Positions 27,580 through 58,294 of a stretch of 64,000 nt of DNA are shown here, one piece after another (position 1 is the first letter of the stretch; each line of letters starts with the position of its first letter). This DNA comes from Craspedostauros australis (taxonomy: Eukaryota; Bacillariophyta; Bacillariophyceae; Mastogloiales; Achnanthaceae): NCBI GenBank assembly GCA_026770025.1, contig JAMXDE010000024.1, forward strand, positions 496,001 to 560,000, in the 5' to 3' direction. The notes under the pieces are model-generated. The model saw nothing but the letters and a program-made list of their open reading frames with translations, searched no databases and was not told where the DNA came from. Both the position numbers and the translations under genes were made by a program.

Positions 27580-30500
27580 ATGACGCAGTCTCACTCTTTC
27601 AATCACAACAACGACGGCAGCAATGCTCACATTCATGTTGCCCATCACCTTTCCAGAGAGCAGAGTCCGCAACAGCAACAAGAAGACAGCGTCGTCGCGC
27701 GATCGAACCATCAGGAGACGCAGGCAGCCATCGGTTCGTTGGACGCGTGCGAGCAAGAAACCGTGCAACCGCTGACTGGCATTGAAAGACACCACAATAC
27801 TAACGACAACGGCCAACACCCGACGATCGATCTCAAGGACATTCCGTTGCCGCAGCGCCCAGATCTGCGCCGTGGACGACTCCTGTCGATCGGCAGCAAC
27901 ATGACGGACGATCCCAAGCGCGGTCCCACGTCGGTGTGCACCGATGATGAAGAATCGAGCCCAGAACATGAACCTGCAGAGTATGCCGCCGACGAAACGA
28001 GATGGCTCAACTGTTCCAAGCTCCTCTTCTTTTTGGTGCTGGCCGTGGCCGCAGCGTCGTCCTCCATCGCGGTCTTCCTCATCTCGTCCCGCGATGAGAA
28101 TCGGGCTTACGAAACGCGGGTGAGTGGAGTGTTGTTATTAGTGGAGTGTTATTGGGAGTGGAGTGGAGTGAAGTGTCGGAGGGGGTTCATGTGCTCTGCT
28201 GCCATTGCACATGTTATGCTGCACAGCCACAATGCACACCACGTGGTCTCGTGAGCCGTAACTCTTGTGTTCGAAGGGGTTCTAACGATCATGATGAAAT
28301 GTCATTGTCATTCACCATCTTCAACTCACGCATCCTCACATTCGTCACTCAACGTTCATTCAATGTTCCTCATCACCACCATTCTGTGCCACGCCAACAA
28401 CACGCCAACAACACACCAATAACATGCCTACGACTACGCACGAGTATTGCAGTTCCGAGACTTTGCCAACGAAATCATCGCCGTCTCCAACTTGAACGCA
28501 CGCTTCGTCGTGCGCACGTACGAGACCGTCAGCTTGCAAATGACAGCATCCATCCACAGAGACAAGCGCGACCAATGGCCCATGGTCTACATCGAAGGCT
28601 TCGAGGGACGCGGCCAGCAGCTCATCAACACAACGGAGACCACCTACACGGCCATCACACCCATCGTTCCCGTCGATCAGAGATCGCAGTATGAACGCTA
28701 CGTGCGCGACAACAGCTCCGAATGGATCCAGGAATCGCTGGACTTTGTGCAGCGCACCGATCTGCAGGTGCAACCGCATCCTCACATTTTCGCATTCAAC
28801 GACAACAACGAGAAGGTGGAGCCGAGTCCCACCACGTCCGGCGTCTTCCTTCCCATCGCGCAGATCGCGCCCATCGTGCCGCTGGCACAGTTCCTCAACC
28901 TCAACGGCATCAACGATGCGCTCAGCCGACCCATCTTGAAGCGCGTCCTGGAGACCAAAGCCACCGTGCTGTCCACCATCGCCACCAACTCCGGCAGCCT
29001 GCTGCCCAACGCATCGCCATCGAGCCTCGTCGTGACGCCCATCTGGCGCACCATCAACGGCCGCCGGGATGTCGTGGCCACCATCGTCGGCAACATACTC
29101 TGGACGGGATACTTCCGCAACCTCGTGCCCGACAACATCGATCCCATCTACCTCGTCGTGCGCAGCGCGTGCAAGCAGGAATTCACCTACCTCGTCGAAG
29201 GACCCAACGTCAGCTACGTCGGCGAAGGCGACCTCTATCCCTCCATCCGCATCGGCCGCAGGAAGGTCAAGGATCTCGAGGTCGACGGCGCCTTCGAAGC
29301 CTTCGAGACCCTCGACGGTTGCGAGTACACGCTGCACGTCTTTCCCTCCAAGGCCTTTTACGAGACCTACAACACGTCGGAACCCGTCACGAACGCCATC
29401 ACGGTCGCTGTCACGTTCCTCGTCACGGCCGCCGTTTTCGTCTTGTATGATTACTTCGTCGAGCGGCGGCAGACGGCCGTCGTCAAGACGGCCAAGAAGT
29501 CCGATGCCATTGTCAGTTCCCTGTTTCCAGCCAACGTGCGCGATCGGCTCATGAATGACGAGCGCAGTCGCCGTGTCGTGCCGCAACAGCAGCCGACGGC
29601 ACCGCAGGTTGCCAAGTCGAAACCCATTGCAGATCTCTTTCCGCGGGCCACCGTGCTATTTGCGGATATCAGCGGGTTTACTGGTACGTATGTCGTGTGT
29701 TGTCGTCGATGCTGTTGTTTGTTGGTGGGGTGAGTGAGTGAGTGCAAGAATGGATGGATGGAATATATCACTCACTTGTCTCTCTCTCTCTCTCTCTCTT
29801 TATGGTGCTATCATACACACATTCACTCAAACGAAACTACTCCACTAATATGCATTCTGCATTCATCACAGCCTGGTCCAGCATGCGAGAACCAGAACAG
29901 GTCTTCGAGCTGCTGGAATCGCTGTACAACAGCTTCGACAAGATCGCCAGACGTTTGGATGTTTTCAAAGTCGAGACCATCGGTGATTGCTACGTCGCTG
30001 TGGCGGGTCTGCCGGAACCCAACCCGCACCACGCCCTCATCATGACGCGCTTTGCGAAGTACTGCATGATCAAGATGCGAGAGGTGGTGCACCGCTTGGC
30101 CGTGCAACTGGGGCCGGACACGAAGGACCTCTCCTTGCGATCGGGTTTGCATTCCGGACCCGTCACGGCCGGAGTTCTGCGCGGGGACAAGTCGCGATTC
30201 CAGCTGTTCGGTGACACGGTCAACACGGCGGCTCGCATGGAACAGACTGGCGTGCGGGGGCGCATCCACATCTCGCAGGAGACGGCCAACGATCTCATCC
30301 ACGATGGCAAGCACAACTGGATCGTCGAACGCGCCGACAAGGTCATGGCCAAGGGCAAGGGGGAGCTGCAAACGTACTGGGTCATCATGGGCAACGAACC
30401 GCTCGAGTCCAAGTCGGATTCCAGCACGACGCGCGACAGCGAGGAGAGCCATCCCATCGCGGCGGCTTCCACGCGCAGCGCAATCGATCGACGACCACCG

Positions 30501-31859
30501 ACGATCGAACTGCGCGTCGAACAGAACATTATGCTGCGCGGAGATGGCAGCGGCCCGGCCACGATGCAATCCGCCGCCAACAGCCTGGAGGTGCAGTGGA
30601 ACGTCGACGTGCTCAAGCACATGCTGCAGCGTGTTGTGGCGGGCCGCGATCCCAATCGGCGCATCGATGTCGACCAGATCAACGAGCTCCGCATCGATCG
30701 CGACGTGGATGCGACGGTGCTGGACGAGATGACGGAGGTCATCCATCTGCCAGGCCAGTGCGCGCAGCACAACATCGATCCCAACGCCGTCGCGCTGGGC
30801 CCGGCCGTGGTGGAGCAAACCGAGGACTTTGTCGAGACCGTCGCTTCGATGTACCGCCGAAATCCATTCCACAACTTCTCGCATGCCAGCCACGTCGTGC
30901 AGTCCACGGTGAAGCTGCTGTCGCGTATCGTGCGCACGGATACCATCGACTACGAGCACATGATGTTCAAGGAGAAGCAGAACACGACGATGCACAACTT
31001 CTCGTTCGGCATCACGTCCGATCCCTTGATCCAGCTGGCCTGCGTGATAGCGGCGCTGATCCACGACCTCGACCATCCCGGCGTGCCCAACGCGCAGCTC
31101 ATCAAGGAGCAGAAACGATTGGCGCAGGCCTACCGCAACCAGAGCATCGCGGAACAGAACTCGCTCGATTTGGCCTGGGATCTGCTGATGGAAGATCGGT
31201 ACAAGGATCTGCGCGCCTGCATCTACACGACGCAGGACGAGATGGAGCGGTTCCGCCAGCTGCTCGTGAACGCGGTGATTGCGACGGATGTGATGGACAA
31301 GGAGCTGAACAGCTTGCGCAAGGCCCGGTGGCACAAGGCGTTTATGTCGTCTTCGCCCGCCGATCTGCAGCAGGTGGCGCCGTGCGGTTGCAATGGCACG
31401 CAAAGCAACGAGGACATGAACCGCATGGCGACCATCGTGATTGAGCATCTCATCCAGGCATCCGATGTGTGCCACACCATGCAACACTGGCATATCTACA
31501 CGAAGTGGAATGAGAAGCTGTTCGACGAGATGTACCAGGCCTACCTGTCCGGCAGAGCATCGGAAGATCCATCCAAGACGTGGTACCAGGGGGAGATCGG
31601 GTTCTTCGACTTCTACATCATCCCGTTGGCGAATAAGTTGAGAGAGTGCGGCGTCTTCGGTGTGTCGTCCGATGAGTACTTGAACTACGCGCAGGCCAAT
31701 CGAAAGGAATGGGAGATGCAGGGCCCAGCCGTCGTGGAAGGCTATCTGAGGAAGTACCAGTCGACTGCTGCCACAAACAGCGATGATGACGATACTGATG
31801 ATACTGAGACGAGACCAACAAGCGACGACAGCGAGGATGACATGGGGGATATGGTTTGA
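27580..31859 (+). CDS. Membrane nucleotide cyclase-phosphodiesterase fusion, copy 1
   Basis: Exons 27580-28119, 28453-29683 and 29872-31859 give 1,252 residues. Introns start GTGAGTGG and GTACGT and end GCAG and ACAG; the second splits ISGFT-AW. Order: Ser/Gln-rich cytosolic tail; ETRWLNCSK then helix 1 (about 147-168); extracellular sensor (about 181-490); helix 2 (about 491-515); SDAIVSSLFPANVRDRL linker; class III cyclase from about 570; class I PDE from about 830. The cyclase keeps metal Asp residues in LFADISGF and IGDCY, and the Asn and Arg in NTAAR. KVET has the Glu of guanylate cyclases, but the partner site in FQLFGD is Gln. The PDE has HNFSHASH, HDLDH and the distal Asp in QASDVCH. 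It should make and hydrolyse a cyclic nucleotide under control of an outside signal. cGMP is my preference; cAMP is possible. Confidence 0.9.
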
Positions 31860-32331
31860 TGTGTGTGTGTGAGAGAGAGAGAGATACAGACAGAAATATG
31901 GCATCGAAGTATGCAAGGACAACAATAGCAACGATGTTGATGATAATGACCTTGCTCACAACTAAAGCGAGGGGGAGAGGCAGGGACAGCAATACAATGC
32001 GATACAAAATGATACAACGTATAATAATCTATACAAATACAGTGCATATTGCATGAATACGTATAACAGTATATAATAGAATATGATAGTAGAGTGGAGT
32101 GGAGTATGGCACAAGGTCTGCTTGGATCAACTCGATACCCGTTTGGTCTGCAATCCTGACAAAGGACCAGGAGCGTCCCATCCTGTTCCCACTACAGTAC
32201 TTGAGACGACGCCGCACCGCGTTCACCTCCCCAACACCACAGTCTCCATGGTGCACCTTGCAACGAAGCTAGAGCCTATTTTGCCGAATCTACTCTTGTG
32301 GCTGGTCGTACAAGACTACACGATCACATAA
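31860..32331. other. Intergenic between converging genes
   Basis: Starts with a (TG)n(AG)n run at 31860-31885, probably 3' untranslated sequence of cyclase copy 1, then A/T-rich sequence with many ATA/TATA steps, where 3' ends from both strands meet. No gene is seen. Confidence 0.55.
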
Positions 32332-33394: not shown

Positions 33395-36300
33395 TCAGGT
33401 CTCCCGATGCTTGGCCATGTATCCCTTGACCACTTCCTCTCCTCTGTTTTCCCATTCCAACCGATTGGCCTTGGCGTAGTTCAGATACTCGTCACTCGAC
33501 ACACCGAACACGCCGCAATCCTCCAGCTTCTTCGCCAGCGGGATGATGTAATTGTCAAAGAACCACAGCTCACCTTGGTACCAAGCGCGGGACGGATCCG
33601 TCTTGGCACGTCCTTCCTTGAAGGCCTCGTAGATCTCGTCGAACAGCTTCTCGTTCCACTTGACGTACACGTGCCAATGCTGCATCGTGTGAGACACATC
33701 GGATGCCTGGATGAGATGCTCGATGACGATGGTGGCCATGCGGTTGACGCTCTCGACGTCGCCTTCCTCCTCTTCCTCATCGTCCTCGTTGCCGTCGTTG
33801 CTGTTGGCAGCGATGCTGCCTTGCGCCTCGCTGCGCCGTCTGCCCTCGTTGTTCTTCCCGCTGAATGCCTTCTCCCAACGTGCCTTGCGCAGATTGTTCA
33901 GCTCCTTGTCGATGATATCGGTCGCCATCACCGAGTTCACCAGCAGCTGACGGAAGCGATCCAGCTCCTCCTGATTCGAATAGATGCATGCTCGGAAGTC
34001 CGCGTAACGTCGTTCCATGAGCAGATTCCAGGCCAGGTCCAGCGAGTGCTGTTCGGCCACACTCTTGCCGCGGTACTTCTTAGCGAGGCGAGATTGCTCC
34101 TTGCCCAGCTGCACATTTGGAACTCCGGAGTGATCGACGTCGTGAATCAGCGCGGCCAGGATGCAAGCGAACTGGGTGACGGGATCGGATGTGATACCGT
34201 ACGTGAAGCGATGCATCGCAAGCGTGTTGGGCTGCTCGTCCTTGTAGGACATGCCGGTGTTGTCGACGTGGGTGGCAGTCACAATGCGGCTCATCAGCTT
34301 GGTTGTGGACTGCACAACGTGACTGGCGTGCGAGAAGTTGTGGAATGGGTTGTCGCGGTACATCGATGCGATGTTCTTCACAAAGTCGCGGAGCTGCGCA
34401 ATGACCTTGGGGTCAACCTCGATGGTGGCTGGATCCTGCTTGTACTGCGCAGCTGCTTGTGGCAGTGCGATAACCTCCTGCACCTCGTCCAGCACGATCT
34501 CTCCTGGTCTGCGATTGATGCTGAGCGCTGCGACGCGCGCCTTGGCCATCAACGGATCAGCGCCCGATTCTCTCATGGCGAGAATCTTCTGGAGCATGTT
34601 CTTGAGCACATCGACGTTCCACTGCACCTCGAGCTGCGTGATGTTCTTCTTTTCGTAGATCTGGTGCATCCTGCTTGGATCCTGGAGGTTGGCGGTGTTC
34701 TCCTCCATGTCGTCCAGGTTGAGCTCTCCGAAGTTCATCTGGGCGATCTCCGCCTTGCGTTGCTCCTCCAGCTCGATGGGGTTCTGCGTGGTTTCGGCAG
34801 TGCCGTCGTTGCTGTTGATGGACTTGAATCGGCGGTAGCTGGTGCGCTTCTCGTTGGGGTCGTCGGCGCCGGGCGATTCGCCCAGCAGGTTCTTGTCCGT
34901 CTCGTTGCTGGCATTCAGGGTGGCGGTTTCACCTCCGTCGATGCTCAACGAAATCTCCTTCGAAATGACGGAGCCATCGCTGCTTGACAATCCTTCGAAC
35001 AGCAGCCAGTAGGTCTGCATCTCGCCCTTGCCCTTCGCCACGATCTTGTCATCACGTGCAACTATCCAAGACGATCGGTTGGCTGCCGTCAGCTCATCGG
35101 CCGTCGCTTGAGATAGCTGGATCTTGTTGGGGATGGAGGTTTGTTCGAGACGGGCGGCTGTGTTGACGGTGTCACCGAAGAGCTGGAAACGAGACTTGTC
35201 TCCACGCAGCACTCCTCCAGTGACAGGTCCCGAATGCAGACCACATCGCATGGACAAAATTCCAGTGTCCGGGCCGAGCGTCACGGCCAGCTTGTTGACG
35301 ACGTGTCTCATCTTGGACATGCAGTGCTTGCTGAATCGTGCCATGACGATGGCATGATCTGGGTTGGGTTCTGGCAGACCCGTGGCCGCGACGTAGCAAT
35401 CGCCGATGGTTTCGACCTTGAAAACGCCAAGGCGTCTCGCGACACGGTCGAATGTGTTGTAGAGGGTCTCGAGGAGCTCGAACACCTGTGTCGGTTCTCT
35501 CATACTCGACCATGCTGCGTGTGTGCGTTTGTGCAAGTGTTGAAGTGTGAATTGGAGCGAGCGTGTTTGTGAGCGCGAGTCTGAGTGTGAATATCCACAA
35601 CCACAACCACAACCACATCCACATAACGCATTAACACATTAGCACAAATCACATGAACAACCATGCATGGCACCACACTTACCTGTGAAACCAACGATAT
35701 CCGCAAAGAGGACCGTCGCGAATGGGAACAGATCTGCGATGGGCTTGCCGCTGCCGTACTTGCCGCTGCTCTTCGACATGGAGGCGGTGGCGGATGCCAG
35801 GGGATTCTGGAGTGGGGCCGAAGCGATGATGCTGCTCATGCCCTTGTCTTGGAAGACGTTGGTGATGAGGTTTCCGCTGCTGCTGTTGATCTTTTGAGCC
35901 GTCTTTTGGGTGTTGCGCGACGTTGGGCTATCTCCCTGCTTGGAGCTGTTTGGCGGCCGTCTCGCTGCCGCGTCGTTCATGAGGCGGTCGCGGACGTTGG
36001 CCGGGAACAGCGATGTAACGATGGCGTTGGACTGATCGGCAGACTTGATGATCTCCTTTTGTCGTCGTTCGACGAGGATGTCGTAGAGGACGAAGATGAT
36101 GGCGGTGAGGAGGAATGTCGCCACGATCGTGATGGCGTTGATGGTCGGCTGGGTGGTGACGATGGCGTCGTAGAAGTCCTGCGTCGGGTGGACGTGGACA
36201 AAGAAGCCGCAGCCCTGGAAGGTGACGTACGTGTCGTACTCACCCGAGATCCGGATATTCCCATCCGAGGCGCCGCGTCCTTCGACCTCGTCGATTTGAA

Positions 36301-38388
36301 GGCCTTCGCCGATGTAGGTGACCTCCGGACCCTCCACGAGGTACGTGTAGCTCTTGGTGCATGTGCACTCGAGAACGATGTAGACGGGATCGGTGCCCTC
36401 CGGCAGAATGCCCCTCAGGTATCCAATCCACTCGATTTGGCCGCTCAGGGTTCCAACCACCGTCTTGTCGTCAAGGTCCAGCGATCGGAAGATCGGTGCA
36501 CCCACCAGGCTGAGAGCAGCTGGATCGTCGAACATCTCGTTGGCGATGCCTTGGATCGGAGAGACGACCGTTTTCCTGGTTTGCATGACGCGATGGACGG
36601 TCATGTTCGCCAATGGTTCATTGAACATGTTGAAATTGGTGATGTTGCCGTTGAACCAGGTGTCGCCCACGTTGAGGATGGGCGAGAAGAGACCATCCTT
36701 GGTCGGCACGGCATCCACCACCCCGGTGCTCGAGAGATCGTGGATGTACGGAATGATGTCAAGGTTGGCATCCGGGTGGCCGGTGAATTCCAGGTTTTCC
36801 TTGATGGCCTCATCGAGCAACCCCAGAACGAATGCTTCGTATTGCGCCTCGTCGTCCACATGGACTAACGGAGAAAAAGCGATGTTCTTGGTTTCGGTGT
36901 AGTCGATGAGCTGGATGGTGCGGGCTTCGAAGCCGTGCAGGTAGACGAAAGGCCACCTCCGCGGATAGGGCGATGTGTGGTCCAGCTCTTGCGCCGCCTC
37001 CTGCTGGGCTGTTATCTGGAGGCTGATTGTGTCGTACGTTTTCGTGACGAAGTCAGCATGCTGCTTCGACGCCGCGATGGCTGCATTGGCAACATCGGTG
37101 AGCTGTATTCACATTCGTATTCGTATTCATGTTCGTGTTGATACCATGGAGAAGATTGGCAGATTGGCAAAGAGGGAGGGAGAGAGATGGTGGTCGCAGT
37201 TGGAGCGATTGTTGTTTGTTGTTTGTTCGTGATGTTGGTGATGGAGATGTTGCGTTCCGCAAAGCCATGCCAACGTGGTGGGGTGTGGTGGTGCGCGCAA
37301 GCGATGTCGGCCAAGTGTGTGAGCATTTCGGTGATGTCCAGTTTTGATCAAGAGAGCGTAAAGTCATTGTCAACGGTACTGCCTCGACGAGGATGCTGGT
37401 GCGTTTGTCAACGTCTTGGGAAATGTCTTGGTCCCAGTGACAGTCTCCGTCTTTTCTCACGAGAACACCTGCTTCGAGGCGAAAGGCCCGCCTGCTGGCC
37501 TCTCCAGCGCAGTGAAGGTCGCGCGCATTGTCCGCTGCCTGTTGCGTCCCGATGTCAGACACACCGCAGCGCACAGAAGCAAAGCCAAGACAAAACAAGA
37601 TAAGAACTGGAACAAACACCGCATCGCAAACTGCCGCAGATCCAAAGGCAGAAAGCAGGTCGCGAAGCAACCGATGCGATGAATGCGCTTGACGAATGGA
37701 AACTGGAACGTACCGCTCTCTCGTAAGCATGCTGCTCCTTGTTGGCCGTGTCCTGCCACACGAAGAACGCGCTGAGACCTGCTGCCACCATGAGCACCAG
37801 GAAGAAGAGTGCCTTGGAGCACAGGATCCACCTTGTCTCGGACGCCACCAGCTTGCTCGTCCCTGTCCTGCTGCTGCTGGCGCCGCGCCCCTTCGACGAG
37901 GTCTTCTTGGTGTTGCGCTTGCCCCAACCGCCGACGCTGATCTGGTCGTCGATGTGGGACGAGATGGAGTGCCCCGACGGCGCGAAGGCGTGCGACGAGC
38001 CGCTGTGCTCGTGCGTGTCGTGGTCCCCGTCGCTGGTGGCGTCGTCGTCGTGGAAGTCGTCCGCGAGGTTGCTGGCCACGCCGTTCTGGCTGCTGCTGGT
38101 GGAGTCCTCGCGGTGCATCATGCCGTTGGCCTGTTCTTGGAAGCCGCTGTTGTGGTTGTTGCTGCTGCTATTCTTGTTGCTGTGGTTGTTGCTATTCTTG
38201 TTGCTGATCCTGCCGCCTCCGAAGGGTCTGCGCATCTTGGATCCTTGTCGCATGTGGGCGGAAGATCCGGAGCTGGTGCTGGAAAGGAATCCGTCCTCGG
38301 TGGTGGGCGAGGTCATGTCGCTGTTGCTGTTGCTTCCGGTGGTATTTGTGTCGGAGGCAACAGGCATTGCTGCTTCCTTCGCCTTCAT
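33395..38388 (-). CDS. Membrane nucleotide cyclase-phosphodiesterase fusion, copy 2
   Basis: Exons on the minus strand: 38388-37714, 37102-35683 and 35514-33395, giving 1,404 residues. The true ATG is at 38388; the frame runs further up without one. Introns: GTACGT to ACAG (611 bp) and GTAAGTG to GCAG (168 bp), at the same two places as copy 1. The cytosolic tail is Ser/Asn-rich. ETRWILCSK precedes helix 1 (about 192-211), helix 2 is at about 546-570, and the cyclase domain spans the second intron (VGFT-AW). Metal residues of the cyclase (FADIVGF, IGDCY) and of the PDE (HNFSHASH near 1093, HDVDHSG near 1157, QASDVSH) are intact. KVET and FQLFGD are as in copy 1. It is nearly identical to copy 3 across the catalytic core, so these two are the most recent duplicates. 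The PDE has an acidic insert before its last helix block. Confidence 0.9.
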
Positions 38389-44025: not shown

Positions 44026-45333
44026 CTAGGAAGTCAATGTGGCGATGTCCTTCTTGAATCCCGGGCGCGGCACAGCCTCGATCCAGTGAAGGATGGATCT
44101 GGTGGGGTAGAACTCAACCACATCGAAGCCAGCTTGGGCGAGGAGTTCGGTCCACTGGGATGGAGTGCGCTCCTTCGCCATCAGGTTGGTCAGCATGAGC
44201 ATGTCCAGCTTCGTCTTGATGGCGGGCAGGGGCACGTCGCTGCGCTCAGGAATGGCGGCCTCGCCGACGATCAGAGTTGCGTTCTTTCCGCGCATGGCAT
44301 CATGCAGGTTGTCCAGGATCACGAGGCACTCCTCGTCGCTCCAATCGTGAAGGATGAATCGCATGGAGTAGGCGTCGCCGTCCTGCGCCAAAGGCAACGA
44401 ACCACTCTGGAAGAAGTTGCCTCCAACCATCTTGACGCGATCGAGCATGTCGGAGTGCTCGGATTGCCAGAATGCCTTTGCGTTCTGGATGACCTTCGGT
44501 TGATCGAAGAGAACGCCCTTGGTGCCTGGGTACTCGTCGAGGATCTTCTGCAGCTGGTGACCGAGGTTTCCGGCGATGTCGAGGATCCTGTCGTACTTTC
44601 CGAATGGACCGTCCTTGGCCATCGAGATGCCGCCGATTCCCTCGAGGGCGAGCATGGCGCGGCCGAACTGCTCCTCCTGCTCCGGCTTGAACTTGTACAT
44701 GTCCCACATTCCGCCCTTGGATCGTGGATAGTCCGGCCATGCCATATCCCACGGCACGGCGGTCTTGCCCTCTGGACCGAAGAGCTTGGGGAAGTGGGAC
44801 CAGGAGGGGAAGAAATCCTCCACCTGGATCCCCAGCATGGCACGCATGCTGTGGGGGCCATCAGTACGCAGGGTGGCCGACAGAGCCGTATTGACGAAGC
44901 GCGGTTTGTCGGGATTGGGAGAGGCCGGGTCGAGCTGCGTCATGCCGTGCGAGGCCAGGCTGTACATGAGACGTTCGACGCGAAGGACGTTGTACTCGGT
45001 CTCCATGTGGACGGCGATCTCCTCGACCGTCTTTGGACCAGTCGCCAGGAAATCTGGGATCTCGAACTTGTGGCACACGTACGCCAGCATGGTCTCCTGG
45101 TATCGCATCGAAATGTCGAACATGGTGATTGGTGGTGGCACGAGGGCGTCGCCCATGCGATGGAACAGATGCGAGAGCCACACCAAGGAATTGAAGACGA
45201 AGAAGGGCGGGGGCTGCGACCAGTCGGCCAGCAGCGCATCCTCGTTGTGGGCACGAGGGAACAGCGCGACGGCGAGGACGGCGCCACCGACCGCAGCGGC
45301 CAGGAGAAGCTTGGTTTTTGTAGATGGTGCCAT
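44026..45333 (-). CDS. Membrane-anchored O-methyltransferase (COMT/ASMT family), copy 2
   Basis: 435 residues, ATG at 45333; the frame continues upstream to 45555 but the homologous start is MAPSTKTKLLLAAA. It aligns with copy 1 along its whole length and most residues agree. It has the same N-terminal anchor (about 8-26), KTVEEIAVHM, ILDIAGNLGH, GVLFDQPKVI, RFILHDWSDEE with the likely catalytic His, and ERTPSQW. It shares the altered glycine motif (DIAGNLG), so this change predates the duplication. Differences cluster in the loop after FDISMRY and in the C-terminal tail, which ends DIATLTS. Both copies are oriented with cyclase copies 2 and 3. They could act in the same pathway with split specificity or dosage. 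Confidence 0.88.
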   Translation of the reverse strand: MAPSTKTKLLLAAAVGGAVLAVALFPRAHNEDALLADWSQPPPFFVFNSLVWLSHLFHRMGDALVPPPITMFDISMRYQETMLAYVCHKFEIPDFLATGPKTVEEIAVHMETEYNVLRVERLMYSLASHGMTQLDPASPNPDKPRFVNTALSATLRTDGPHSMRAMLGIQVEDFFPSWSHFPKLFGPEGKTAVPWDMAWPDYPRSKGGMWDMYKFKPEQEEQFGRAMLALEGIGGISMAKDGPFGKYDRILDIAGNLGHQLQKILDEYPGTKGVLFDQPKVIQNAKAFWQSEHSDMLDRVKMVGGNFFQSGSLPLAQDGDAYSMRFILHDWSDEECLVILDNLHDAMRGKNATLIVGEAAIPERSDVPLPAIKTKLDMLMLTNLMAKERTPSQWTELLAQAGFDVVEFYPTRSILHWIEAVPRPGFKKDIATLTS

Positions 45334-46691
45334 GGTGATGCTGTTTTGATCGATATCCAAATTTATGATGAGAGGGCGATGTTGACGCTCGCTGACCGAA
45401 AGATCAAGCAAACAACAACAACTGGAGCAAACAACTGGAGCAGTAGCAATGGAACGATGAGCGGCCGCAGTAATGACAGTCGCAGCAACAGGATCCATGT
45501 CAACGTCAACATCAACGTCAGCGTAACCATCGCAGCCAATCCACCAGACACACAACGACCACGCAGATCCACATCAAGACCAAGTTCGACATCGCCAATT
45601 TCGAAAAGCGCCATGGATACGACTATGAAACTCACCAGGCTTGTATTTGGGCTCCTGTTCTCACGTCTGCAGATGAAGTGTGCAGGTCGGAGTTCCAGCA
45701 AAGCGAAAGTGTCGCAACTTTCCTTCGTCATCCAAGCTTAGCGAATCCGATCCCTCAAAGCGCGAAAAGAAGACAGCCGTCACGCAACTATCAATTGTGA
45801 CGGAATGAAATGTCACAAGACACGCAGATAAGTCGGTCTTTCCATAAATCTGAATTCGTGACATATCTATGGTGCCATATAGTACACTGCCCACGACCTG
45901 CTCTACCACAACAAGTATACTCTATCCAACTTCTGATCACACGGACTGCGTGACGATCGAAATGATCCATCTGCCTCCTCGCATGGACCCAAGAGAGTGT
46001 ACTCCTGAGCACAAGCTACTCCATCACGAATCTCACCGGAACGTGCCACTCCACAGATATGCGAGTGATCCCAACGCTTCTCAGGACCCAGCCAGACTGC
46101 ACGAAAGTGAGCGCTGTGTCGACTCATCTGGCCTGCACCTTGGGACAACCGAGTTGGATTCAAAAGAAGCCGGTAGGACAAGGCGCAGCTTCTGCGATGC
46201 GCATTGACAATGCACCAGCAGGGCTGCTGCAGACATCATCGGTTCCATTCCAAGTCGGAATGGTCCGCGGATGGAAACTTCTGTACAGACGCACACTTCG
46301 CTTGGGATACAATGTGCCTCGAAGGTCGGCCGAACAATCTATCCACATTGGTGCTTCCGCATCCGCTGCGGCGCATCCAGGGCAACAATAGATTCGTGTG
46401 TCCCTTGTTGAAGAACGCTCTATCTTCCGTAACGGACATGTTATCAACGGCATGACACATTGTCGGACGTTGTGTAAAGGTGTAGAGTATTGGAGCGGAG
46501 TGTAGATGAGACATTCCTCTCGAACGGAATGTACCTACTGTCGAGAGAAGAAATCAAGATGGCATCATAAATAATCTTATACATTCTAGTTGCGCATGCA
46601 TTTGCGAATGTATTACTCAGCGAATATTCTGCTGCCCCTATTGTGAACTGGTGCCGATATTGATGACGCCGCTGTGAAAATTGTGCAATGA
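45334..46691. other. Intergenic, no supported gene
   Basis: Upstream of O-methyltransferase 2 and downstream of cyclase copy 3. Near 45495-45535 there is a short GTCAACATCAACGTCAGCG run. Frames of 60-120 codons on both strands overlap, and none is convincing. Confidence 0.5.
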
Positions 46692-49600
46692 TCAAAGACC
46701 CGTGCCATTTGGTGCTGGTGCCCCATTGTTCCCTCCTCGGTACTTCGCCATGTAGGCATCCACCACCCCTTTGCCTCGGGTCTCCCACTCTCCGCGGTTG
46801 GCCTGGGCGTAGTTCAGATATTCATCGCTGGACACGCCGAACACGCCGCAATCCTTCAGCTTCTTCGCCAACGGGATGATGTAGTTGTCAAAGAACCAAA
46901 GCTCACCTTGGTACCAGCCTCTGGATGGATCCATCCTGGAACGCCCGCATTTGTAGGCCTGATAGATCTCGTCGAACAGCTTCTCGTTCCACTTGACGTA
47001 CACATGCCAGTGCTGCATGGTGTGGGCCACATCCGATGCCTGGATGAGATGCTCAATGACGATGGTGGCCATGCGGTTGGCGCTCTCCACATCGGTACCA
47101 GCGTCACCATTGCCGTTGTTTGCTGCTGGGTCGCTGCCTTCTCCCTGGTCACCAGCAGCAGAAGCAGCGGCATCATGGTCGCTGTTACTGAATGCTTTCT
47201 CCCAACGCGCCTTGCGCAGATTGTTCAGCTCCTTGTCGATGATGTCGGTTGCCATAACAGCGTTCACCAGCAGCTGACGGAAGCGGTTCAGCTCCTCCTG
47301 ATTCGAATAGATGCATGCTCGGAAGTCCTCGTACTGCGGCTCCATCAGCAGATCCCAGGCCAGGTCCAGCGAGTGTTGCTCGGCCACGCTCTTGCCACGA
47401 TACAGATCCGCCAAATGGGATTGCTCCTTGGCCAGCTGCACGTTCGGAACCCCGGAGTGATCCACGTCGTGGATCAGCGCGGCCAGGATGCAAGCGAACT
47501 GAGTGACGGGATCGGATGTGATACCGTACGTGAAGCGATGCATCGCAAGCGTGTTTGGTTGCTCATCCTTGTAGGACATGCCTGTGTAGTCGACGTGGTT
47601 GGCGGTCACAATGCGACTCATCAGCTTGCTGGTGGACTGTACAACGTGACTGGCGTGCGAGAAGTTGTGGAAGGGATTCTTGCGGTACATCGACGCGATG
47701 TTTTCGACGAAATCGCTAATCTGCGCGACGACCCTGGCGCCAAGCTCGATGGTGGCCGGGTCTTGCTTGTATTGGGCGGCTGCTTGCGGCAGCGCGATGA
47801 CCTCCTGCACTTCGTCCAGCACGATCTCTCCTGGTCTGCGATTGATGCTGAGCGCTGCGATCTCCGCTTTCGTTGGCGACGATCGTCGTGATGGTGCATT
47901 TGTACCCGCGCCCTTGCTTCCATCTCTCATGGCAAGGATCTTCTGGAGCATGGTCTTGAGCACATCGACGTTCCACTGCACCTCCAGCTGCATGATGGTC
48001 TTCTTCTGGTAGGCCTGATGCATCTTGCTTGGATCTCGAAGATTGACGGTCTTCTCCTCTTCGATATCCTCCAGGCTCAGCTGCCCCACGCTCATTTGGC
48101 ATTGGTCGTTGCGATTGTTACCAGCCATGTTGGAATCGGGGTTGCTGTTGGAACGGTTGCGACGACGGCCGTTCTGTACCGAAGGCATGTTGTCTCTCAG
48201 GATTGGCTCGCTCGCATGCCGCCTGTGTGCATCGTGTCCATTCAGGTTTCCTTCAGCGCTTGCCGCCAAGCTGCGTTCTTTGGACACGACGGAACCGTCG
48301 CTGCTTGACAAGCCTTCGAACAGCAGCCAGTAGGTCTGCATCTCGCCCTTGCCCTTCGCGACGATCTTGTCTTCACGTGCAACCATCCATGACGATCGAT
48401 TCGCCGCGATCAACTCGTCAGCGGTCGACTGCGACAGCTGGATCTTGTTGGGCACGGACGCTTGCTCAAGTCGAGCGGCCGTGTTGACAGTGTCACCGAA
48501 CAGTTGGAAACGAGATTTGTCTCCACGCAGCACTCCCGCAGTGACTGGACCCGAATGTATGCCGCATCTCATTGCCAATGTGCCGGTGTCTGGACCGAGC
48601 GTCACGGCCAGCTTGTTGACGACGTGTCTCATCTTGGCCATGCAGTGCTTGCTGAACCTTGCCATCACGACGGCGTGTTCCGGGTTGGGTTCTGGAAGAC
48701 CCGTGGCCGCAACGTAGCAATCGCCGATGGTTTCTACCTTGAAGACATTGAGGCGTCGTGCGACGCGGTCGAATGTGTTGTAGAGGGTCTCGAGGAGTTC
48801 GAAGACCTGTGTCGGTTCTCTCATGCTCGACCATGCTGTGTACGCAAGCGTTGGAATGTGGAGACAAGTGCGGGCAGGGGCAGGAGTGGGTGTGTTTACG
48901 TTTGTGAGTCCGACCGTAAATGTACAACATGAAGAATAGGCGCAATGTAGATGCCCAAGGTTTACATTACACACCAAAAGGCATCCCTCATAAACACACA
49001 TACGCACACACGCTCTCGCACATACACGCGCATGCAAAATCTACCATGAACTCACCTGTGAAACCGACAATATCCGCAAATAGCACCGTCGCCGATGGAA
49101 AGAGATCGGCGATTGGTTTGCCGCCGGCCGTTCTGGGCGCTGCCTCCGTGGGCTGTTCTGCTGTCGAGTTCATCATGCTGCGGATCATCATGCTGCCCAT
49201 GGATTTGTCCGCAAAGACGCCGCTGATGCCGCTGCCTCCCTTCTGACTATTCCTGTGGCGGCTGCGGTGCGGCATGCCGTCATCGTTCTTGACGCGCAGA
49301 TGATGCGACGATCGACCCAGCACGGCATCATTCATGAGCCGGTCGCGGACGTTGGCGGGGAACAGCGACGTGACGATGGCGTTGGATCGATCCGCGGACT
49401 TGATGACCTCCTTCTGACGGCGTTCCACGAGGATGTCGTAGAGGATGAAGACGATGGCCGTGAAGAAGAACGTGATGACGACCGTGACGGCGTTGATGAA
49501 CGGCTGATCGGTGACGATCGTGTCGTAAAAGTCTTGCGTGGGGAAGACGTGGAGGGAGAAGCCGCACTCCTTGAAGGTGGGCAGGACGTCGAACGGCTCG

Positions 49601-51180
49601 CTGACTTCTAGGTTCCATCGCGCCCATGGGCGTCCCTCGATGGAGGGCACCTGCGTGCCGCTGCCACGGTGCTCCACCTTCGCACCTTCGACGTAGTACG
49701 TTTGATCCGGACCGCAGCCATCGCGCATGACGATGTGAACGGGATTCGCGCCTTGTGGCAACAGGTTCTCGAGGTATCCGATCCATCGCACACCACCGGA
49801 CAAGAAGGCGACCACGTCACCCTTGTTGCCGCGGTCGAGGAATCGGTAGATCGGGGTTGCGAAGATGCTGGTGGGGGCGTTGGTGCCGAAGAACACGGCT
49901 GTGATGTTCTCCATCGGAGTCAGGACGGTCGTCTTCAATTCCAGCGTGCGTTGGTACAACTCACCGATTTCTGGAGTGGAAATCGCGTTGAAATTGGTCA
50001 TGTTACCAGCTCGTGCCACCGGGGCAACGTGCATGAGAGGAGCAAAGATGCCATTCTCGTTGGGCCTTGCTGGCGTGGGAAGGACCTGTGGGGTCAGGTC
50101 GAACACGAAGGGCGCCGTCTGGATGGTGGCATTCGGCATGCCGCTGTACGCCAGACCCTCCTTGATCCACCTGGGGCTGTGCTGGTTGACGAAGTTCTGA
50201 TACTCTGGCAAGCCTGCCACCGTGACTATCGGCGTGATACCCACGTAGGAGGTCTGCGTGAAGTTGACGATCTGCTCCGAGCGGGCCTCGAAGGCGTGGA
50301 TGTGCACGGTGGGCCACGTGGGAGCGTCTTCATCCTTGTCCTCTCGCAAGGCCAGCTCCTCGGCCGTGATTTGCAAGCTGACCGTCTCGAAGATGTTGGC
50401 GATCGAAACCGCGTTGAGCTGGGCGACCGCGATGGCCGCGTTGGCGACGTCGGTGAACTGTCATGGATTGGAGCGTTGATCGCAGCATGGGTTTGGTTAT
50501 TGTTGCTCAGTGAGTGAATGTGTGAATGCAAGATGTGCGAATGTCAACAAGGAGACGCAAAAGAAACCGGCACGCTCCACAGAATCCCCACAAGTTCACA
50601 CCAGCGCATACTCTCCGGAGACGTGCGCGGTATAATCCCACCAACTCACCCTCCGTTCGTACGAATCATGCTCGGCGTCCGCAGAGATCTTCCAAACAGC
50701 GAAGGCGCTGGACGCGGCCGCGATCAGCACGACGAGGAAGAAGAGCAGCTTGGAACACAGCAGCCACTTGGTTTCTCTGGCAACGAGGGCACTCGCGGTC
50801 TTCGACTTGCGCTTCTTCCTGTCTTGCTTCGTCTCTTCCGTGTCGGACGAGATGGAGTGATTGTCCAAGGCTCGAAGTTGGGATGATGAGCCTGGTATCG
50901 CCTCATCGTTGCTGCTGTGCTCATCGTGGTGTTCGGCGCCGATCGAACCGGCTTTGCTGGCAGCCTCCATCAGCAGCATCCCGACGGTCAACGAATCCTG
51001 GCTTTCGTTGTGATTGTGGACGTCCTCTGCGCTGAAGCTCTCGATGTTGGCGGAGTCGCCATGGTCCAGCGCGCTTGATGATGCATCGCTCTCGTAGACG
51101 ATGTCGCTGCTCTCGTTGCTGGTGTTGCTGTTGCCGCGGATGACATCGTCATAGTCGTTGTTTCCGTATCCATCTCCCAT
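46692..51180 (-). CDS. Membrane nucleotide cyclase-phosphodiesterase fusion, copy 3
   Basis: Exons on the minus strand: 51180-50650, 50457-49056 and 48835-46692, giving 1,358 residues. The ATG at 51180 (MGDGYGNN) is the first in frame. Introns of 192 and 220 bp (GTGAGT to ACAG, both) fall at the family positions. ETKWLLCSK precedes helix 1 (about 145-164). The extracellular part contains TWPTVHIHAFEARSEQI and NPVHIV blocks like its paralogues. Helix 2 is at about 500-522, followed by SNAIVTSLFPANVRDRL. The cyclase and PDE catalytic residues are intact (FADIVGF, IGDCY, HNFSHASH near 1033, HDVDHSG near 1098). From REPTQVFELL to KGKGEMQTYWLL it is almost identical to copy 2, while the sensor region differs strongly, suggesting the same output wired to a different input. 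Confidence 0.9.
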
Positions 51181-53168: not shown

Positions 53169-56100
53169 CTACGGAAACTTCGATCGGTACTTCTTGACCA
53201 ACTCCTCACCGCGAGTCTCCCATTCCTTGCGATTGGCCTGGGCGTAGTTCAGGTACTCGTCTGATGATACACCGAACACTCCGCAATCCTTCAGCTTCTT
53301 GGCCAGCGGGATGATGTAGTAGTCAAAGAAGCCGATCTCCCCTTGGTACCAGCTCATGGTCGGGTCCTCCGTGGCTCTGCCGGCCAGGTAGGCTTTGTAC
53401 ATCTCGTCGAACAGCAGCTCGTTCCATTTGGTGTAGATGTGCCAGTGCTGCATGGTGTGCGACACGTCGGAAGCCTGGATCAAGTGCTCGATGACGATGG
53501 TGGCCATGCGATTCACGCTCTCTGCGTTATTCCTGCCAGACACCATGTCACCGCTGGCACCATTGCTGTCGTTCATCTTGTTCGGCGACCCTCCCACCTG
53601 CTCAAGCCGATGGCTGAAGGCCTTCTCCCATCGCGCCCTTCGCAGGGTACCCAGCTCCTTGTCCATGATATCGGTGGCCATGACCGCGTTTACAAGCAGC
53701 TGCCGGAAGCGGTCCAGCTCGGCTTGAGTGCAATAGATGCACGCACGGAAGTTCTCGAACCGCGGCTCCATCAGCAGATCCCAGGCAAGGTTGAGCGAAT
53801 TCTGCTCCGCCACGCTCTTATTCTTGTACTGCTGCGCAATATCCGCGCCTTCCTTCACGAGCTGCGAGTTGGGGAGACCGGTGTGGTCAACGTCGTGGAC
53901 CAGCGCTGCTACGATGCAAGCAAACTGAGTCAGCGGATCCGATGTGATCCCGTAAGTGTTTTGGTGCAGGGCCTTGCCGCTCTTCTTCTTGTACGTCATG
54001 TTGTTGTAGTCGATGGCCTCCGAACCGATGATTCGGGACATGAGCTTGACGGTCGATTGGACCACGTGGGTTGCGTGGGAGAAGGAATGGAATGGATTCT
54101 TCCTGTACCAGCCGGCGATCGTCTCCACGTAGTCGCGGATTTCTTGCTTGGCAACCGTGGGAATCTCGATCGAGCTGGGGTCTTGGAATGTGTGCGGCAC
54201 CTTGTTGGGGAGCCGGATGACTTCTTTGACCTCTTCCAGGACGATCTTGCTGTATTCCTTCTGAAGGTCCTTGGGCCGACCAGGGCTGGCCCAGCTGTCG
54301 CTGCTGTGATGATCCATGCTCTTGCGCTTGGCACGGTACAGCTTCGGGTCACGGACAGCGAGGATGCTCTTGAGCATGTTCTGAATAACGTCCACGTTCC
54401 ATTGAATCTCAAATTCCGTGTCTGTGTCGATGCGCACGGAGGGTCGAAGGTTCGCTAACTTGGCAGCGTGGCCCAGCGAGGAAATCGACTGTATTCGTCG
54501 GTAGCTTGGCCTCCTGCCAGTCGCAGGTCCACCGCGCTCGGATTTGGTGTGCTCGAACGAAAACCTGTTGCCATTGGAACCGTCTGGACGGTCGACGCCA
54601 TTGACAACATGGCCATTTGCAATCGTCGTGCGTGTTCCTCTCTTGCCTTGCGCTCCGGAAGTTCCCGACGGCAAGGGCATGACCTGAGGCGACTCTGAAT
54701 CGCTCTCTGATTCACCCTCCATCTCAGCGCCGAAGGACGAGCTTGTGCTTGTCTGAACTTCACAGTCGGCCTCTAGTTGATCGCTCGCAATGCCTTCGCT
54801 TTCGTATTGCTGTTCTTCGCTCTCGCCATCATTCCATGTCACATCCTGGATGCTCGCATTATGCGCTGTTGCAATGCTGTACTGGCTGTGAACGCTACCC
54901 AACTCGGGCCTGTCCCCTGATGGTGTCACTCCTTCTTCTCCCGTCCCTGCTGCTGCCGCTGCTGCAGATGGGTCGGGTGATGATTGCGACTGCGACTGCG
55001 ATGGTGATGACGATGTCTTTATCCAATAGGTTTGCAGCTCTCCCTTCCCCTTGGCCACCACCTTGTCGGACCGGGCCACCAACCACGACGACCTGCCTGA
55101 GCTGACCAGCTCGTCGGCGGTCTCCTGGGAGATGTGGATGCGGTTGGACGCTCCGCAGGATTCCATGCGCGAGGCCGTGTTGACGGTGTCGCCGAACAAT
55201 TGAAATCTCGATTTCTCTCCGCGTAGCACACCCGCAGTTACCGGTCCAGAGTGAGCACCGATTCTCATGGCGAGCTTGCGGGTGGTGGGACCAAGCGACA
55301 CAGCCAACGAGATCATGACTTGCTTCATCTTTGACAGACATGCTCTTGCGAAACGGATCATCACGGTGGCGTGGTTTGCATTGGGCTCCGGCAGACCCGT
55401 TGCGGCTACGTAGCAGTCTCCGATGGTTTCCACCTTGAACACACCGAGACGACGTGCGATAGCATCAAAGGAGTTGTACAGCGTCTCGAGCAGCTCGAAC
55501 ACCTGCGTTGGTTCTCTCGTGCTGGACCATGCCGTGAAGCCGACGATGTCAGCGAACAGAACCGTGGCTCGTGGGAAGAGATCGGCGATGGGCTTCGTCT
55601 TGAGGCGGATGATGCTGCCGCTGCTGCTTGAGGGGCCGCCGTAAACGACGCTGTTGGAATGCTTGGAGCCATGCGTAGAGCCACGCGAGAGGCGACCGCT
55701 TGGATCCATCGAATTCGCGCGGTCAATGCTGTTCTGGCGCAGGCTCCTGTTATGGCTGCTCTTCCCCTTCCTGCTGTACTTGCTCATCTGCATGAACTTG
55801 CCGATCACGCTGGGCTGTCTGTTCATCTCCATGTAGCGCCCCCGCTGCTCCTTCTCATCGAGCGCATCGGTCTTTACAGGATCCTGATCATTCAGTGGGG
55901 CGTCATCGGTGACGTTCTGGAGACGACTGGCATGGTCATGATCATCGCCCATATCCAGCAAACGGTCTCTGACGTTGTCTGGGAACAAGGAGCGTAGAAT
56001 GGCGTTCGACCGATCGGCGGTCCTCATGACATTGTTCTGCCGCCGTTCCACCAGCACGTCGTACATCACGAACACGATGGCAGTGGCGAGGAAGGTAACG

Positions 56101-58294
56101 ACCACCGTGAGCGTGTTGACCAGAGGCTTGCGGGTGTGGTACGTGTCGTAGAAGTCCTGCGTGGGGTACAGGTGGAGAGTGTAGGAGCAGCCGATGAATG
56201 TAGGGACGGGCGTGAACTCGCTCGACTCTGTGGTGCTTCCGATATCGGTGTCATGCAGATCGCCTCGACCCACGAACTCGACACGTGGCCCGTCGATGAG
56301 GAACGTGTAATCCAGCGTGCAGACGTTCTTGACGACCAGGTAGATTGGATCGATGCCTTCTGGGACGAGATCCACGAAGAATTTCTCCCATAAGATGTTC
56401 CCGCTGAGGATGCCCACCACCTCGGGGGTTTCCTTGGCGTGGCTGTCAAAGATGGGAGCAGCCAGATAGCTCTCTGGCGTATCCCCCGTGAGCGTGGTCG
56501 CGTCATGTCGGATTTCGGCAAGCAGCATCGTCTTTTCTTGGAGGATGAGCTCTATGGTCTTTCTGGCGAAGCCTTCATCCAAGCTGTTGTAGTTGACGAA
56601 GGCCCCAGCCTCTGCGATGGGCGCAATCTGAGACACGACGATGGCGATCTCGTCCGATCCAGGAGCCGGAATCCACGGCTTGATGGGCACTTCACTTCCC
56701 ACATCCTGGACAAACACGAACGGCACCGTGGGGATGAACAGATTCGGCTGCCCAATGTGTTCCAAGCTCTCCTGCATCCATTCAGCATTGTTGACCTGCA
56801 ACCATTGGTTGTAGTCGTTGAGCTGGTCGGGTCTGACGACTGAGGACAGGCCCACGATGTTGGTTCCGGTGGCATTTCGAATCTGATCGGCCTGTTCCTC
56901 GAATCCGGGTATCTTGACGTAGGGCCACTTCTCTTCGCCGTGTGTGGACTTGTACATTGAGCTGCTCGTGTAGGTTGTGATTTGATGGCTCACGGTGTCA
57001 TACGTGTCGAAGACTACTTTGGCATTGAGATGGGACACAGCCACGATGGTGGTCACGATGTCTCGGAACTGTGCGAAATAGAGTAGAGTAAGAATGGAGG
57101 AATTGCACAGTGGCATAGCGCAGATGTAAATGCAAATGTAAGGGGTGGTGGTGGATGTTGGTACGCACAAGCACAAGTGCGTATGCCGAGAGGAAGAGCG
57201 ATATATGCAGCACACAACATGTAATATGATGCAACGCACAAGCCGCAGAGGGAAGCAAACAAACACAGACCACTTACTCTCGTCTCGTACGTGCGCTGTT
57301 CATCTTGCGCGCCGATGTAGTACACCGCGTAGGCGCTGCTGCATGCGGCCAGCACGAGAACAATGACGACCAATCCCTTGGAACATCGCAGGCGCTTGGT
57401 CTCCCGGTTCAACGCGGAGTCGTTGCGTCGCTCTCGTGTGCTGCCCTCGGTTGCGTCGTAGTCGGAGGTGGAGCCGTGTCCCTTGCTGCGTCCGATTGGT
57501 TTGCCGTCGTCTTCCTCGTGACGGCTTGGATCGTCGTTGGCGAAGGAGTCGACGCTGGCAATGTCGTCCGCCAGCATTTCTGGATGCTGGTCGTTCGCAG
57601 TGGTCGGACGGAACGTGCTCTCGTGATCTGTATTCGGTGCCGTGTTGGAAGTATCCTCCGACGGCGTCTTCTCTCTTGCCTGCAGATCCTTGTTCATGGT
57701 GTCAAACTCGCGGCGGCCGCTGTTGCTGTCTTCGTGAGGTGCGCAGGCGAAGCTGTTGAGCGTGAGGTCGTCCAAGCTGTCGCCGAGGCTGCTGTTATAG
57801 GTCGACATCGGTCCTGGTTGATTGTGACTGTGGACGTCGATGCTGTGGCCACTTTGGCTTTGCATCTCAGAAGAGCTGGAGTGGGTGCTGCCCGCGAGAG
57901 TTGCTGTGTACATGTCGTCAGCGGCAGATGAGAGTGGTGGGTTCACGAATAGATAGTCGTCTGTCTGGTGGAGGGATGAGTGAGATGCGACGTCGGCGAA
58001 GTCAGCTTGTTCCTGTTGTACGTGATGATGTTCCTGTTCCATCCCTTCGCGTACTTGTTGTGTTGGTGATTGTGCGAGTACTTCTGACGTTGAGGTTCCA
58101 GTTTCACCAGGCACTCCTCCCGTTTGTGGGACCTGCAGCAACTGTGGCACTTGTAGTGAATGTGACGCTTCCAAAGATGGGCCAGCCTCAATCGGTTCCT
58201 CCACTGGAAGTGGTGGCGTTGAATCTGGATCATCATTGGGTTGACCTGGACTGTGGTTGTCTGGTCCGACAGCGATTGAATATGCCGCCTTCAT
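53169..58294 (-). CDS. Membrane nucleotide cyclase-phosphodiesterase fusion, copy 4, lacking intron 2
   Basis: Exons 58294-57278 and 57068-53169 on the minus strand give 1,638 residues. The intron (GTAAGTGG to ACAG, 209 bp) is at the family's first position. The second intron is absent: IVGFTAWSS reads through. An ATG at 58561 could add 89 residues, but that stretch looks untranslated. The tail is long and Ser/Gln-rich. ETKRLRCSK precedes helix 1 (about 305-325), and helix 2 is at about 656-678. The cyclase starts near 833 with FADIVGF, KVET (about 882) and FQLFGD. A linker of about 260 residues, rich in Ser and Glu, leads to the PDE (HSFSHATH near 1332, HDVDHTG near 1399). It is the longest and most diverged copy. 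Catalytic residues are intact, so an active enzyme is likely. Confidence 0.88.

Follow-up and report, generated by a model that had tools for sequence, protein, structure and literature searches.

Within a 64,000-nucleotide stretch of the genome of the diatom Craspedostauros australis (hereafter the window; C22:496001-560000, where C22 is our label for contig JAMXDE010000024.1, in a 74.8 Mb genome of 90 contigs) lie four genes, g1 to g4, each coding for an extracellular sensor, a guanylate cyclase (GC) and a class I phosphodiesterase (PDE) in a single chain. From their structure and conserved residues, we consider it likely that they are members of the diatom receptor-type GC/PDE family whose products make cyclic GMP (cGMP) and hydrolyse it locally. 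In the scheme that we favor, a CHASE-type extracellular sensor between two membrane helices would bind a ligand, and the signal would pass through the second transmembrane helix (TM2) and a helix-like stretch to the cyclase, a predicted homodimeric class III enzyme that would make cGMP. The C-terminal PDE of the same chain would hydrolyse this cGMP on the spot and so limit the response in space and time; such a protein could generate pulses or local gradients of the messenger. The family, of about 100 copies, would have grown by local and dispersed duplication. Its sensors would be less constrained than the cyclase as they diverge. Purifying selection would hold the catalytic halves similar, aided in several paralogue pairs outside the window by gene conversion or partial duplication. 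The window cluster is the densest local piece of this genome-wide family.

Gene structure and the cyclase domain

The gene models, defined by open reading and splice-site sequence only, were rebuilt exon by exon. All introns are GT-AG and there are no internal stops. The first-pass annotation of this DNA had described four intact genes of 1252-1638 amino acids (aa) spanning 27580 to 58294, and the rebuilt models (1252, 1404, 1358 and 1638 aa for g1 to g4) match it exactly. They also bear out its account of an extracellular sensor, a cyclase and a PDE in one chain, by topology and by Pfam domains in all four. The genes are:

27580-28119, 28453-29683, 29872-31859, plus strand: g1, CHASE-like receptor guanylate cyclase/PDE, 3 exons, 1252 aa (model and Pfam)
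38388-37714, 37102-35683, 35514-33395, minus strand: g2, built like g1, 1404 aa in 3 exons; sister to g3 (model, Pfam and trees)
51180-50650, 50457-49056, 48835-46692, minus strand: g3, built like g1, 1358 aa in 3 exons; sister to g2 (model, Pfam and trees)
58294-57278, 57068-53169, minus strand: g4, same architecture, 2 exons, 1638 aa (model and Pfam)

In each chain a cytosolic N-terminus is followed by TM1, an ectodomain of about 315 aa, TM2, the guanylate cyclase and the class I PDE. Intron 1, in phase 0 and directly after TM1, is common to the four genes; intron 2, within the cyclase domain, is present in g1-g3 and absent from g4. In g1-g3 hydropathy peaks highest at TM1 and TM2 (there are two extra weak peaks in g1 and one in g2); for g4 both helices were taken from the alignment, in which they line up with those of g1-g3. 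The predicted membrane orientation would place the ectodomain outside the cell. After TM2 comes a conserved helix-like stretch, VERRQ...SLFPANVRDRL, separated from the cyclase core by an insert of 23, 78, 72 and 121 aa in g1 to g4, respectively; this post-TM2 region may resemble the linker of animal receptor cyclases.

All four chains match Pfam Guanylate_cyc (E 7e-49 to 3e-37) and PDEase_I (E 3e-28 to 1e-30). The cyclase domains (PF00211) lie as follows:

29868..30383, plus strand: g1 cyclase domain, exon 3 part
35003..35512, minus strand: g2 cyclase domain, exon 3 part
48324..48842, minus strand: g3 cyclase domain, exon 3 part
55017..55574, minus strand: g4 cyclase domain

Both metal Asp, the guanine-selecting Glu and the transition-state Asn and Arg are kept in 48/48 chains. 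A point against a typical guanylate cyclase is the second guanine-specificity position, which is Gln in 43 of the 48 chains, g1-g4 included, the remaining five carrying Gly, Ser or Cys; the canonical residue there is Cys.

A genome-wide family and the origin of the cluster

Searches of the whole genome, whose counts are lower bounds, gave 127 merged cyclase places and 113 merged PDE places, with 24 cyclases and 10 PDEs unpaired. About 103 cyclase-then-PDE pairs on the same strand within 3 kb are fusion candidates, which rules out an isolated four-gene array; four further fusion copies lie on C22 itself. The pairing rule was verified by full gene models for g1-g4. Altogether 42 of the 103 fusions were read, namely the four in the window and 38 that were fetched and whose domains come from open frames (L-numbers are labels for loci outside the window). 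Of these 42, 40 carry the ectodomain family of the window genes over 100 columns or more, L029 and L031 falling short, and exon-by-exon searches of the genome with the ectodomains yielded 73 matches for g2 and 95 for g4, the query itself counted.

When candidates less than 20 kb apart were grouped, there was one cluster of four (the window), one of three, twelve of two and 72 singles. Uniform placement of 103 candidates over 74.8 Mb put four within 31 kb in 0.15% of simulations, and 17 neighbor pairs less than 20 kb apart were observed genome-wide versus 2.8 expected; local duplication is therefore real. A haplotig artefact in the window is ruled out, since the g2 sensor matches only itself at 100% and its next best match is at 40%. 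A dense array of this kind had been suggested to be undescribed; the cluster is one part of a family of about 103 candidates, and tandem-expanded cGMP families have been published for Seminavis robusta (PMC7335047).

Matches to the g4 sensor at C22:453196, C62:124868, C62:140415 and C22:903146 fall in frames of 1437-1617 aa with no adjacent cyclase among the matches listed, and the sensor there may be joined to another output. In L042 (C57:325000-334900), a cyclase with the same sensor and no PDE match stands upstream of a full fusion.

The four genes had been called intact paralogues. Their open frames and splice sites agree with this, but only g2 and g3 are clear sisters, in both the catalytic and the sensor tree (support 100 and 96). 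Under midpoint rooting, the catalytic tree joins g1 and g4 to g2 and g3 in a clade that also takes in L012, L014, L015, L040 and L041, copies from contigs C1, C43 and C55. Approximately unbiased (AU) tests did not reject monophyly of g1-g4 (p 0.057 and 0.29), so that on these trees it is neither shown nor rejected. Whether the four genes form one local tandem array from a single ancestor can be weighed on this basis. They are mutually nearest or near-nearest in cyclase identity (0.74-0.92), which together with the unrejected monophyly would suit such an origin. The five copies from other contigs within their clade do not, nor does the g1 sensor, whose nearest relative is L014 on C1 (identity 0.42). 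Moreover, g1 lies on the strand opposite g2-g4 and g4 lacks the cyclase intron. A single-ancestor array is thus possible, though we would not bet on it, and we retain a mixture of local and dispersed duplication.

The ectodomain as a probable divergent CHASE sensor

The ectodomain is probably a divergent CHASE domain, with the fold of plant cytokinin receptors; profile and model-based comparisons lend this moderate support. The four window ectodomains are:

28453..29385, plus strand: g1 ectodomain, 311 aa, divergent CHASE (E 0.0057 in Pfam CHASE, short of the cut-off)
36146..37102, minus strand: g2 ectodomain, 319 aa, divergent CHASE (E 0.0012 in Pfam CHASE, short of the cut-off; best PDB matches of the AlphaFold2 model are PcrK 6k62 and AHK4 3t4s)
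49501..50457, minus strand: g3 ectodomain, 319 aa, divergent CHASE (E 0.041 in Pfam CHASE, short of the cut-off)
56124..57068, minus strand: g4 ectodomain, 315 aa, CHASE by homology to g1-g3 (36-37% identical to the g1 ectodomain)

Among nine paralogue ectodomains, seven matched Pfam CHASE at E<=0.1 and two exceeded the cut-off (L039 with 28.5 bits and L018 with 26.0); a genome-wide CHASE scan independently recovered the L039 gene (29.1 bits) among its four matches. The window ectodomains share two invariant Cys and carry 1-5 N-glycosylation sequons each. An AlphaFold2 model of the g2 ectodomain was built from the four window sequences. With this model Foldseek returned PcrK (E 3.2e-4) and AHK4 (E 4.6e-4) as top PDB matches, with the KinD sensor and ligand-binding domains of chemoreceptors ranking after them.

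Several results weigh against this assignment. None of the four window ectodomains scores above the curated Pfam CHASE (PF03924) cut-off; three match weakly, and there is no Pfam match for that of g4. The g2 model is weak (predicted local distance difference test, pLDDT, 57; predicted template modeling score, pTM, 0.58), and against the listed AHK4 and PcrK chains it reaches low TM-scores, 0.32-0.39 when normalized by query length. The model of the g4 ectodomain is poor (pLDDT 42.6), and AHK4, although first in its search, is non-significant (E 0.054). A CHASE-like label suggests adenine derivatives and other small molecules as ligand classes, among which cytokinin may be only one option.

Sensors evolve faster than the catalytic parts

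The sensors evolve faster than the catalytic parts. For this comparison, with the short copies L006-L008 excluded, the identity table covered 22 of 42 chains, the trees 35 of 48 and the test at 4-fold degenerate sites 40 of 48. Sensor identity was below cyclase identity in 231/231 paralogue pairs and below PDE identity in 229/231, with medians among the 22 genes of 0.26 for the sensor, 0.66 for the cyclase and 0.52 for the PDE. For g1-g4, pairwise identity is 0.31-0.40 in the sensor, 0.74-0.92 in the cyclase and 0.60-0.81 in the PDE. Over 35 genes the sensor tree has a length of 25.7, versus 12.8 for the catalytic columns. Between g2 and g3, the ratio of nonsynonymous to synonymous divergence (omega, NG86 method) is 0.54 in the sensor, 0.06 in the cyclase and 0.20 in the PDE. 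The first-pass annotation had proposed conserved catalytic cores and diverging sensors, a claim that sensors evolving no faster than catalytic regions would have helped to refute; the 231 pairs and the two tree lengths show the opposite. Identity, tree length and the g2/g3 omega values all support the contrast, but in many close paralogues part of the catalytic likeness includes silent sites, as described below.

The same contrast had been taken as the mark of a receptor family expanding to read several ligands. Faster sensors agree with this, but diversifying selection is not demonstrated, because sensor omega never exceeds 1 and PDE omega equals or exceeds it in 4 of 14 pairs. Sensor omega was 0.24-0.68 in 14 of 15 pairs, the fifteenth having no sensor change, and it was above 1 in none of the tested pairs (14 valued pairs of one set and 18 of another); the values in both sets speak against gene-wide positive selection on the sensors, a measure that cannot reveal positive selection limited to a few sites. 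It exceeded cyclase omega in 13/13 pairs having both values and PDE omega in 10/14. The four exceptions, which count against uniformly faster sensors, are L021/L022, L037/L038, L048/L049 and L042b/L043; in the 18-pair set PDE omega was also above the sensor value for L019/L021 and L019/L022. PDE omega itself, at 0.04-0.64, indicates purifying selection on the PDE. Alignment error at 30-40% identity somewhat inflates the rate of nonsynonymous change in these sensor estimates.

Could this simply be ordinary relaxed constraint, with sensors that merely tolerate change, many redundant copies and no diversification of ligands? This is a serious contender, if the less probable one. It would explain why sensor omega exceeds 1 in no tested pair, and it sits well with the wide range of conditions to which the cGMP family of Seminavis robusta responds, according to parts of PMC7335047. 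The window sensors nevertheless stay open, and their Cys, sequons and length are kept despite high silent divergence. Furthermore, amino-acid change is densest in ectodomain columns 61-180 in four of five close pairs scanned (in L021/L022 it is densest in columns 1-60). Silent change is often high in that region too, and selection alone is therefore not its cause. Columns 61-180 are perhaps the membrane-distal part of the ectodomain, where the model is least certain. Selection on a few sites, as said, would escape a gene-wide omega. We prefer sensors that change under weaker constraint than the cyclase and that might come to read different ligands from copy to copy.

Mosaic divergence within close paralogues

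Divergence at 4-fold degenerate sites was compared in 473 usable pairs, which share genes and are not independent. In 443 saturated pairs the mean divergence was 0.676 in the sensor, 0.674 in the cyclase and 0.641 in the PDE; because these means are nearly equal, the sensor has no inherently higher silent rate. Among the 21 unsaturated pairs, 14 had greater silent divergence in the sensor than in the catalytic part (Fisher p<0.05). The silent-site likeness of the catalytic half in close paralogues points to gene conversion or partial duplication. Seven of these 14 pairs lie on the same contig (L021/L022, L019/L021, L019/L022, L036/L038, L037/L038, L044/L045 and L048/L049). Along the gene, identity profiles show the step either in the final portion of the sensor or at the hinge.

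Two pairs illustrate the pattern. L037 and L038, neighbors on C22, are 0.95-1.00 identical per 150-nucleotide bin from the hinge at nt 4050 to about nt 6600, shortly before the stop, and outside this tract identity falls to 0.48-0.59 in the 3' flank and, save for one bin at 0.97, to 0.61-0.85 in the sensor. Their 4-fold divergence is 0.31 in the sensor and 0.01 in both cyclase and PDE (Fisher p 3e-14). Since the high-identity tract is bounded on both sides, this pair would fit gene conversion. In L021/L022, identity of 0.95-1.00 runs from nt 4050 past the stop to the end of the fetched stretch, and because it continues beyond the stop, partial duplication would fit as well.

Other observations limit the reach of this mechanism. 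The remaining seven of the 14 pairs lie on different contigs, and for these an effect of the assembly is less easily dismissed; in 7 of the 21 unsaturated pairs the silent excess in the sensor was not significant. In the window itself the excess for g2/g3 was likewise not significant (p 0.084 at 4-fold sites), which leaves recombination unsupported as the source of their sensor divergence. Sensor and catalytic trees conflict significantly in only two of four AU tests, run on groups chosen after the trees had been viewed: catalytic L019+L022 (p 0.0116) and sensor L036+L037+L038 (p 0.0115) were rejected, and catalytic L033+L038 (0.23) and sensor L021+L022 (0.147) were not. These sensor/catalytic mosaics amount to natural sensor swaps that could be used in receptor assays.

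A divergent PDE domain

The PDE domains (PF00233) of the window genes are:

30867..31646, plus strand: g1 PDE domain, with Glu at the invariant-Gln position and Ser at the conserved metal-pocket His
33521..34345, minus strand: g2 PDE domain
46857..47672, minus strand: g3 PDE domain
53286..54092, minus strand: g4 PDE domain

By sequence, this domain is a divergent homologue that Pfam scores still place in PDEase_I. The metal-pocket positions H, H, H, D, H, D and E are kept in 42/42 chains. Two substitutions count against a fully competent enzyme. The metal-pocket His that corresponds to His1176 of GlPDE, where it is termed strictly conserved (PMC5617230), is Ser in all 42 PDEs, so that the eight-residue pocket is incomplete. 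The purine-binding Gln, normally invariant in class I PDEs, is Glu in 38/38 fused copies that cover the site (four of the 42 PDE rows lack coverage there). Because two normally invariant positions are replaced, hydrolytic activity is uncertain. The Glu is set opposite the Gln of PDE4B in a phmmer alignment, and the stand-alone PDEs L050 and L051 of the same genome retain the Gln. A third residue, Asp, occupies this position in L052 and L053, two PDEs of the GC/PDE type (on C7 and C57) that lack a paired cyclase match.

An engineered enzyme offers a comparison. In human PDE9 the Q453E substitution raises the KM for cGMP from 0.113 to 2.8 uM and lowers catalytic efficiency about 50-fold for cGMP and about 5-fold for cyclic AMP (cAMP), according to the portion of PMC3069055 used here; the mutant retains activity, and in the same portion its authors consider Gln unlikely to decide between cGMP and cAMP. 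By analogy, the simplest inference is that the fused PDE would be a low-affinity enzyme acting mainly on the high local cGMP beside its own cyclase; it may alternatively be a regulatory site or a compensated normal enzyme.

Taken further, the two substitutions could mean that the PDE domain has lowered affinity and either hydrolyses weakly or serves as a regulatory module that binds cGMP, in which case the receptor would be mainly a cyclase whose own product is sensed, or is trimmed only at high local concentration. The fixation of Glu and Ser across the fused copies, the Gln of the stand-alone enzymes and the PDE9 efficiencies all point this way. Yet the other surveyed metal ligands are kept in every chain, the domain is under purifying selection, PDE9 Q453E is still active by the account cited above, and other pocket residues differ too, so that Glu may be well accommodated. 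We regard this as unlikely enough to keep a local cGMP hydrolase, damping the response of its own receptor, as our preferred assignment. The fixed Glu gives a one-residue handle on how such make-and-break receptors work.

If all of these features are combined, one arrives at a CHASE-type chemoreceptor repertoire of about 100 receptors, in which conversion would keep the signaling part exchangeable between copies but would bypass the sensor part, leaving it free to diversify. Each PDE would have been retuned by the Gln-to-Glu change to low cGMP affinity, making each chain its own pulse-limiter. As a whole we think this synthesis improbable, more so than any of the alternatives above.

Neighboring genes and other observations

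It had also been proposed that other genes of the pathway lie within the array. The recognizable genes between g2 and g3 turned out to be two O-methyltransferases, both outside the receptor family:

40602..42059, minus strand: O-methyltransferase (PF00891 + PF08100; Pfam), between g2 and g3
44029..45573, minus strand: second O-methyltransferase, between g2 and g3

The genome search found four PF00891 matches, two of which are this pair; it is a local curiosity and not a set of cGMP pathway genes. Elsewhere in the window, positions 14436-15350 (plus strand) give a weak match to a Frizzled/Smoothened-type G protein-coupled receptor (E 1.9e-4, 21.2 bits versus a cut-off of 22.3). A single 1311-aa open frame at 5152-9084 (plus strand) has no Pfam match at E<=0.01, and a 1352-aa open frame at 18416-22471 (minus strand) has an AAA_16 ATPase domain (E 1.4e-18) close to its beginning. 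The genome also contains 88 matches to the silicon transporter family PF03842 (best E 4e-249), of which no fewer than 25 are stop-free and near full length; copies with stops occur as well. This family marks diatoms, in keeping with the identity of the host, and is very numerous here, other diatoms having a handful.

Comparison with known systems

The GC/PDE family, its topology and the tandem expansion of cGMP genes are already published for Seminavis, and since the S. robusta papers report this same topology and expansion, the window cluster belongs to a known kind. The following points come from portions of the texts cited. In S. robusta, eight GC/PDE fusions, including Sro991_g228730, are upregulated by the sex-inducing pheromone SIP (PMC8027222), and, as in g1-g4, a small intracellular N-terminus and two TMs around an extracellular stretch precede GC and then PDE (PMC8027222, PMC4726125). 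Moeys et al. found all but two guanine-binding residues conserved in the S. robusta GC/PDE, proposed ligand sensing via the ectodomain or via an activator, and considered the GC/PDE combination, to their knowledge, exclusive to diatoms (PMC4726125). Receptor-type GC/PDEs also respond to exudates of the bacterium Maribacter (PMC6688387), and such fusions have been proposed as readers of diatom pheromones and bacterial cues (PMC4726125, PMC6688387). The S. robusta genome paper places cyclases among tandem duplicates, a word that may include polyketide cyclases, and cGMP-related proteins among tandem-enriched expansions; it assigns the highest pleiotropic signal to the cGMP family and reports a high ratio of nonsynonymous to synonymous polymorphism (piN/piS) for some cGMP genes (PMC7335047). 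A P. multistriata GC/PDE homologue has a Ka:Ks of 0.92 (PMC5485032).

Term searches found neither "CHASE" nor "glutamine" in the main texts of PMC8027222 and PMC4726125, and neither "CHASE" nor "gene conversion" in that of PMC7335047; "CHASE" is thus not mentioned in the main texts of these S. robusta papers, their supplements being outside the scope. In searches with subscription journals mostly outside them, no title or opening of an abstract pointed to a CHASE sensor, to the Glu in the PDE or to the conversion pattern in a diatom. The CHASE assignment, the Glu and Ser substitutions and the conversion pattern are therefore testable details added here and not found in the literature searched.

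Outside diatoms, the adenylyl cyclase-PDE CAPE of liverworts and charophytes likewise joins a class III cyclase and a class I PDE in one chain; unlike in g1-g4, the PDE is N-terminal and the adenylyl cyclase C-terminal, and no GC activity was detected, according to parts of PMC5159850 and PMC8115329. In g1-g4 the cyclase precedes the PDE and the guanine-selecting Glu is present, which sets them apart from CAPE. The best structural matches of the g2 ectodomain model, AHK4 (3t4s, 3t4j) and PcrK (6k62), have histidine kinase output, unlike g1-g4, and show just 12-14% identity over the structural alignment. In AHK4 and PcrK the sensor sits between two TMs. Animal receptor guanylate cyclases have a different ectodomain, one TM and no PDE domain. 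Their cyclase, for example that of atrial natriuretic peptide receptor 1, is homologous to that of the window genes (E 6e-30), and they are membrane receptors that make cGMP, as g1-g4 would.

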